Both the position numbers and the translations under genes were made by a program. Positions 13,638 to 21,625 of a stretch of DNA of 64,000 nucleotides are shown here, piece by piece (the stretch's first letter is position 1; each line of letters opens with the position of its first letter). Source of the DNA: an uncultured Opitutia bacterium (GTDB lineage: Bacteria; Verrucomicrobiota; Verrucomicrobiia; Opitutales; Coraliomargaritaceae); assembly GCA_937136395.1 (NCBI GenBank), contig CAKZOI010000022.1, positions 62,001 to 126,000 of the forward strand. The letters are read 5' to 3'. The notes under the pieces are model-generated. The model ran no database searches, was not told where the DNA came from, and saw nothing but the letters and a program-made list of their open reading frames with translations.

Positions 13638-13714
13638 TTTTGCGGCGGGGTATTAGCTTACCAGCGAGGCGATCTATAATACCATTTCTAGTATTGTTCG
13701 ATCTGGTAGCGCAG

Positions 13715-13952
13715 GCGTGTTTCGGATGGCACTACTTTAAGAGGATTTTTTGGTGGGGTCGCCTCGCCGAGGCGACCGTTTGCCCGCTGGTTACGATTAG
13801 CCAAAAGGTTTTAGATGGCCGTTTTATAGAGTTGGATAATCCACATTCTTTAGGTATATGGTGCCTATTGCCGCACGGTCGCCTCGGCGAGGCGACCCCA
13901 CCTCTTATAATGGCTGAAAACATCCTTAAGGTAGTGCCATTCGGGACGTGTC
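13715..13952. repeat. Inverted-repeat element with twin 21-bp palindromes
   Basis: The left arm (13715-13777) contains GGCACTACTTTAAGAGGAT, then GGTGGGG and a palindrome of 10-bp arms GGTCGCCTCG/CGAGGCGACC. The right arm (13877-13952) carries the same palindrome, then CCCCACC, and after about 20 extra bases ATCCTTAAGGTAGTGCC. The arms are thus imperfect reverse complements around a roughly 100-base centre with no coding frame. This resembles a non-autonomous MITE or paired REP element. Confidence 0.6.
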
Positions 13953-14210
13953 TCACGCCGCACGAAAGTTTGTGGTGCCTCGCAAGCCTCTATGCGCACG
14001 AAGGACGGTGCCGCGCTGCCCTGTAATCGACCCTAAATACTGGCTAGAGGGGAGCTGGCTTATTCAGCCTAGGTCTAGAGAACCGAGGCTCCAAGAGAAT
14101 GGCCACGAAGGGGCGAACCTTTTAGAAAACGGTATTAACCTAGATACTGGAGTCAGAATACTGAAGTCAGGAGTCAGTAGTTTATACTGAGGAATTTACA
14201 AATACAGGGA

Positions 14211-14230
14211 GCTTCGCCAATTGGCGAAGC
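14211..14230. repeat. Perfect 20-bp palindrome
   Basis: GCTTCGCCAA followed by its exact reverse complement TTGGCGAAGC. It lies 60 bases past the stop of the minus-strand MFS gene. No T-run follows on either strand, so a terminator role is weak. It may be a repeat or a protein-binding site. Confidence 0.5.
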
Positions 14231-14289
14231 GTATAATTTTGCAATCAGTTGATTGTGAACCCTGACTGCTTTTTTTAGGATAATTCGCT

Positions 14290-21437: not shown

Positions 21438-21625
21438 TTCTTAGGCAACCCTGCAGTGTTCGATCTTAAACGGAGTTTCTGTCCTTTACTCTTTCGCAAT
21501 CGGGAGCTGACCCTTTTTGGTAGCTGTCCAGCCGTCAATCGGAAGACAAAAGCCGCGAAGGAAGCACCCACCTTAGACGCAAAAGGCCAAGGACTCCCCC
21601 TTATACGGCACATGTGGGGCTTTTT
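21438..21625 (+). ncRNA. ssrS: Candidate 6S RNA
   Basis: No frame here has family support. On the plus strand the 5' part reads CCTGCAGTGTTCG, resembling the 5' conserved end of 6S RNA. The 3' part contains GAAGGAAGCACCCACCTTAG, close to the GCACCCACCT box of many bacterial 6S RNAs. A possible closing helix is CTTaGGC near 21440 with GCCAAG near 21588. A CCCC/GGGG hairpin and six T's near 21620 could terminate it. 6S RNA mimics an open promoter and sequesters sigma-70 polymerase. Ends are approximate and the assignment rests on recalled motifs. Confidence 0.5.

Follow-up and report, generated by a model that had tools for sequence, protein, structure and literature searches.

A REPIN within a MITE within a second REPIN: a probable stack of nested non-autonomous mobile elements in a Coraliomargaritaceae genome

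REPINs and RAYTs have been described before (PMC3116915, PMC2817692), and the REPs adjoining RAYTs display a GT(A/G)G format (PMC2817692). Among Verrucomicrobia, GTAG repeats have been described from O. terrae (PMC3733652), the only paper found in the open-licence literature on a REP-associated tyrosine transposase in Verrucomicrobia, and the same source describes REP dimers lying regularly within a longer palindromic repeat in Anabaena variabilis. IS elements inserting into REPs are also known, for example ISPpu9 (PMC8450116). In the open-licence literature, no paper was found on Coraliomargarita with repetitive extragenic palindromic repeats, nor on nested insertion of MITEs with REPs or RAYT/MITE mosaics, and none describing a MITE that bears REPINs and inserts into the loops of REPs. 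Each ingredient, the REPIN, the MITE and insertion into REPs, is known by itself; what is new is their combination in a MITE that lands in REP loops with a REPIN as cargo.

The element described here is found in a 64,000-nucleotide stretch of contig CAKZOI010000022.1 from an uncultured Opitutia bacterium, referred to as the window, and the host genome comprises 3.18 Mb in 106 contigs. Most probably, the element is a composite of nested non-autonomous mobile elements, consisting of a REPIN in a MITE, in a second REPIN, in an outer repeat, and extends from 13680 to about 14032 (possibly 14134). It resembles the REPIN/BIME and RAYT systems described in PMC2817692, PMC3116915 and PMC3733652 in its inverted GTRG palindromes, conserved spacer, multiple copies and intergenic position, and its type flanks a Y1 transposase, here in relatives. 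However, the REPIN here lies within a MITE within another REPIN, and the host yielded no intact cognate RAYT. The Anabaena variabilis repeats likewise hold REP dimers in a larger palindrome, yet the account in PMC3733652 has one level, whereas the present MITE has been found with further interiors and sits within a second REPIN. ISPpu9 is similar as a mobile element landing in REP palindromes, but it encodes a transposase (PMC8450116), while the present element lacks one and has a REPIN as cargo. Finally, the short length, inverted ends, likely ~10-11-bp direct duplications and lack of a gene are shared with MITEs in general, although no parent element was found for this one.

Architecture of the element in the window

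The centre of the element displays two exact 21-bp palindromes, GGTCGCCTCGCCGAGGCGACC at 13757-13777 and GGTCGCCTCGGCGAGGCGACC at 13877-13897, 120 nucleotides apart from start to start, and allowing up to three mismatches, these two matches compare with 0.00 expected from 100 shuffles of the window. As the original prediction claimed, they differ at the centre base (c or g); since they are exact reverse complements of each other, this difference reflects an odd palindrome length and an inverted second copy, and nothing more. Each is embedded in a 28-nt arm (13752-13779 or 13875-13902); the two arms show 100% complementarity and lie 95 nt apart. The first arm, on the forward strand, combines a GGTGGG head with the palindrome and represents the first REP of the inner unit P, while the second REP, on the reverse strand, is its exact reverse complement; the spacer C between them (13780-13874, no strand assigned) is found in six copies in the host genome. 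A GGTAGG head is seen instead at loci L004, L006, L007, L033 and L068, so that both variants of the GT(A/G)G head occur. With two inverted GTRG-headed REPs around a spacer, and with multiple extragenic copies (positions between ORFs from a crude caller) whose number is low for a REP family, the inner stretch 13752-13902 is, by its sequence features, a REPIN. The whole folds stably, with z-scores against shuffles of -10.9 for RNA (13724-13946) and -7.9 for single-stranded DNA (13680-14035). An Rfam search of the whole window at gathering thresholds returned two tRNAs and a 6S RNA (21445-21624, 65.2 bits) only, and no match at the element.

This REPIN is enclosed by a 219-bp MITE-like unit, B (13724-13942, forward strand), bearing inverted ends GRATGGCACTAC...GTAGTGCCATTC (the end sequence is also given as GAATGGCRCTAMYTTAAG and GAATGGCRCTAA). 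Its outer arms at 13723-13741 and 13925-13943 are 19 nt long and 89% complementary; these are the mirrored flanks previously predicted, and they provide B with the terminal inverted repeats of a MITE. The proposal of a MITE or a paired REP unit with a centre of roughly 100 bases is partly right on both counts, a REP pair with a ~95-nt centre being carried by a MITE-like element. The predicted limits, 13715-13952, were slightly off those of the MITE-like unit, the REPIN and the composite starting at 13680. The prediction also missed that a second REP hairpin (13705-13723 and 13947-14021), itself inside a further repeat, houses the element.

The interrupted hairpin belongs to a unit termed D, of which the left half of a GTAG-headed REP (GGTAGCGCAGGCGTGTTTC, 13705-13723, forward strand) precedes B, and the rest, including the second REP (GCAC...GGTGCCGCGCTGCC, 13947-14021, forward strand), follows it. 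At C12:8852-9000 in the host genome, the sequences that flank B on its two sides are joined directly, reading GGTAGCGCAGGCGTG-TCT-CACGCC...GCACCGAGGACGGTGCCGCGCTACC, and such uninterrupted D units are found at 11 other T-D places in this genome. D is a REP pair with GTAG heads facing inward, and comparison with these copies indicates that B in the window sits in the hairpin loop of D, a second, GTAGCGC-headed REPIN type.

D is in turn usually enclosed by TACCATTTCTAGTATTGTTTGATC... and ...GATCCATCTTTTTTTGAAAAGGTA, an outer repeat T with ends TACC...GGTA. In the window, the left end of T (TACCATTTCTAGTATTGTTCGATC, 13680-13703, forward strand) is one that recurs at many places in the genome. Its right part starts with CTGTAATCGACC (14022-14032, forward strand; identified by eye against L078, with no BLAST call) and is then disrupted, and as unrelated DNA follows 14032, the right end is uncertain; a possible candidate, GAAAACGGTA (14125-14134, forward strand), was placed by eye and runs into the beginning of an unrelated repeat family, while a script found no T end pair in the window. 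Across the host genome, the T end pattern is enriched, with 43 occurrences against 9 for the reversed pattern. A 3-bp TNA duplication flanking T is suggested by exact matches in 6/13 cases (shuffle mean 2.9, p 0.03), an end pair being absent at 13/26 loci. The separate repeat family at 14131-14250 (GAGTCAGAATACTGAAGTCAGGAGTCAG ... TTCGCCAATTGGCGAA) numbers at least a dozen copies genome-wide and also adjoins T-D stacks at C22:197.0 and C74:58.2 kb.

Copies, duplications and landing sites

The host genome encodes 17 exact palindromes. A module map based on BLAST covers 30 host loci (L033 and L107 overlap at C21:231.9-232.0 kb), of which 15 contain the palindrome: the twin form is seen at six (the window, C46, C21:137.9, C22:26.8, C73:146.6 and C47:44.8 kb) and a single palindrome at nine, while the remaining 15, T-D or D repeats, lack it. 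The map does not include C24:9.8 kb, where a fragment lies, C74:21.6 kb, where a MITE lacks P, or four places with a more distant D-like repeat (C95:28.9, C35:150.8, C35:143.1 and C22:42.6 kb). Block composition differs among the host copies. The single-palindrome copies probably arose by deletion through recombination between the two palindromes, as the two REPs of the host pair are identical, which would make loss of one palindrome together with the spacer possible, and as the single palindrome at L008 adjoins a retained right end of the spacer, the pattern that a deletion would leave. Insertion of the spacer with duplication of the 21-bp palindrome is less likely than a twin form existing first, given this L008 remnant and the two unlike palindromes of the twin form in relatives, namely G002 (TGCTCTC and TCGCCTC types) and G004. 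An extra stretch in the B arm is common to C22:196.9 and C71:138.1 kb, at different places, and the whole stack has therefore apparently been copied one or more times.

Of 43 genomes of the family, 15 hold the MITE ends CGAATGGCACTACYTTAAG with up to two mismatches, while a reversed control gave one match across all 43. Stand-alone B-type elements of ~170-187 bp are present in G010, G019, G031, G036 and G059, and no gene was found between MITE-type ends at the 30 loci examined among the matches listed. The interior varies by genome: P in the host and in G002, a genome of the same genus, a GTAG REPIN (GGTAGGGACGCCTGCCC...) at L265 of G002, and GGCTGCTTCAGCTGCC hairpins in G010, G019 and G036. 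No copy of the same interior without a REPIN was found, and the insertion of P into B is thus something we only infer.

Duplications were scored in 24 B-type MITEs and are exact in three (11/11 GGGTCATGTCG in G010, 11/11 CGAAATGACCC in G019 and 10/10 GAGACGGTGC in G002), reach 8-9 matches in six more (9/10 at L019 and L048, 9/11 at L252, 8/10 at L047 and L052, 8/11 at L262), and poor in the rest, the window among them. Over all 24, the mean identity of the 10-bp flanks is 0.47 compared to 0.35 in cross pairs, providing modest statistical support. In the window, the left copy, GGCGTGTTTC (13714-13723), forms the last 10 bases of the left D half, and flank comparison places an imperfect right copy, GG(GA)CGTGTCTC, at 13943-13954 on the forward strand, with 6/10 matches ungapped, rising to 9/10 only with a 2-base insertion (read by eye). 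An IS4-type enzyme would presumably fit duplications of 10-11 bp.

Movement is best illustrated by G002, where two base-identical 247-bp B+P units at C29:34324 and C29:64822 have surroundings without notable similarity, differing 10-bp flanks, and duplications of 9/10 and 8/10; a third unit is 240/247 identical. Base identity at unrelated sites argues that the MITE and its REPIN moved together, and the two identical copies suggest that this movement was recent.

As for where B lands, it splits D1 in its loop in the window and in further copies: it adjoins D1 in 12 of the 15 P-bearing places by BLAST, half of D1 being visible by eye in the other three, and it faces both ways relative to D. In G002, B interrupts D1-like REPs with other stems and, at L264, a D2-type hairpin, and in G036 a D1-like REP is interrupted by B at L048. 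A GTAGCGC-like word lies within 30 nt of 12/24 MITEs, against a proportion of 0.15 for random places in the fetched loci, a comparison drawn from REP-enriched loci and 24 non-independent elements in which the words at L262 and L265 look like chance. D-type REPs are not the sole target, as the landing site is instead GGGTCATKTC-like in G010, G019, G021 and possibly G031. The B-type MITEs of four other genomes (L237, L246, L252, L254) share GGGGTCATKTC as a recurring site, possibly part of a repeat in its own right, comparable to the GGGGWSAS-like TIRs described in PMC3733652. At L261 (G036:C13:50960-51317), two near-identical 174-bp B-type MITEs are arranged in tandem with a GGTCATGAGC-like site between them.

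REP-associated transposases in relatives and host

In Coraliomargarita sp. SDUM461004 (G004, recognised by a 600-bp stretch identical to the record), P-format REPINs (GGTAGGGCTCTCTCGCCGAGAGAGCCG ... CGGACGCCTCGGCGAGGCGTCCCTACC) are present in repeated copies and also lie on both sides of a gene for a 149-aa PF01797 Y1_Tnp protein, an intact REP-associated (Y1) transposase. The REP hairpin of this strain is GTAGGG-headed (CGCCTCGCCGAGGCG), while the window version reads GTGGGG. Similarly, a PF01797 RAYT in G036 is flanked on both sides by D-type REPINs (GTAGCGCAGGTGCGTCCCGCACCGC / GTAGCGCAGGCGCGTCCCGCGCCGC). The host genome has five PF01797 genes (six matches) and one further, broken RAYT at C71:56.3 kb, found with the G004 RAYT (45% identity over part, stops elsewhere). 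P or D REPs are beside none of the six RAYT-like host loci (0/6), and the host genome yielded no intact cognate transposase, making current mobility doubtful, and the host REPINs may be immobile now. The RAYTs at C39, C70 and C22:355.8 kb were rejected as cognates, having their own, different repeats (GTAGAAGCGACACTC..., GTAGGGGCTTCATTTATGAAG... and GTAGCGTGC..., respectively). At L080 (C39:88462 in the host), numerous GTAGAAGCGACACTCTTGTCGC REPs surround a RAYT gene, which makes this clearly a REP-RAYT unit, of another type.

These searches follow up the remaining parts of the original prediction. The refuting outcome that it named, no second copy, did not occur, with six twin copies in the host and related units in relatives; probable target-site duplications are present, though imperfect in the window; and a matching transposase accompanies matching REPs in relatives but not in the host genome.

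Assembly of the stack and its meaning

The innermost REPIN would be of the type mobilised by a RAYT, a presumed role for the enzyme, and would have become the cargo of a MITE producing a ~10-11-bp target duplication, itself presumably moved in trans by a putative DDE transposase. This MITE would have inserted into the hairpin loop of the GTAGCGC-headed REPIN D, which sits inside the outer repeat T with its TACC...GGTA ends. The order of nesting is one that we infer.

The same arrangement could also be produced by one modular palindromic repeat family, BOX- or ERIC-like, in which blocks are lost and gained by recombination between palindromes. Such a family would explain why block composition varies between copies, why the single-palindrome forms resemble recombination products, and why all four layers are inverted repeats around one centre, forming a long stem. 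This is nevertheless unlikely, since the layers occur separately: D is found alone at C40:25.9 and C71:53.3 kb, T-D without B at 12 places, B with other interiors, and a P-type REPIN alone in G004, while B occurs in either orientation with respect to D and has duplications at sites that are unrelated. Less probable still is a functional hairpin maintained for the flanking genes as a bidirectional transcription terminator or mRNA stabiliser. The very stable fold would suit this function, as would the positions of 28 copies, of which 14 lie between tandem, 10 between convergent and 2 between divergent ORFs, with 2 unresolved (crude ORF caller), yet a similar placement is reported for REPs in general (PMC3733652) and the composition of the element changes from copy to copy. 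Moreover, 5/5 relatives have the gene that lies upstream of the element in the window, and in none of the five is a module of the element found near this orthologous gene. A terminator role is also compatible with a selfish element, which may take on such a role.

Nested insertion of mobile elements remains the favoured reading. Speaking against it are the absence of P or D REPs beside the host RAYT-like loci, the imperfect duplication in the window and the modest mean identity over the 24 MITEs, the lack of a gene between MITE-type ends at the 30 loci and of a REPIN-free interior, and the want of a clean empty site at the orthologous locus, where downstream synteny is lost in the relatives. 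A broader proposal, tentative but a real possibility, is that a MITE family of Coraliomargarita-like bacteria prefers REP loops and carries REPINs of a different RAYT type, so that two unrelated transposition systems, the single-strand RAYT and a presumably double-strand DDE one, feed on each other and build multi-layer stacks moving as units. How REPINs spread is an open question, as RAYTs are often single-copy or lost. If true, a MITE carrying a REPIN and landing in REPs would represent a second, RAYT-independent route of spread, and MITEs with REPINs would be a source of mosaic repeats between bacterial genes.
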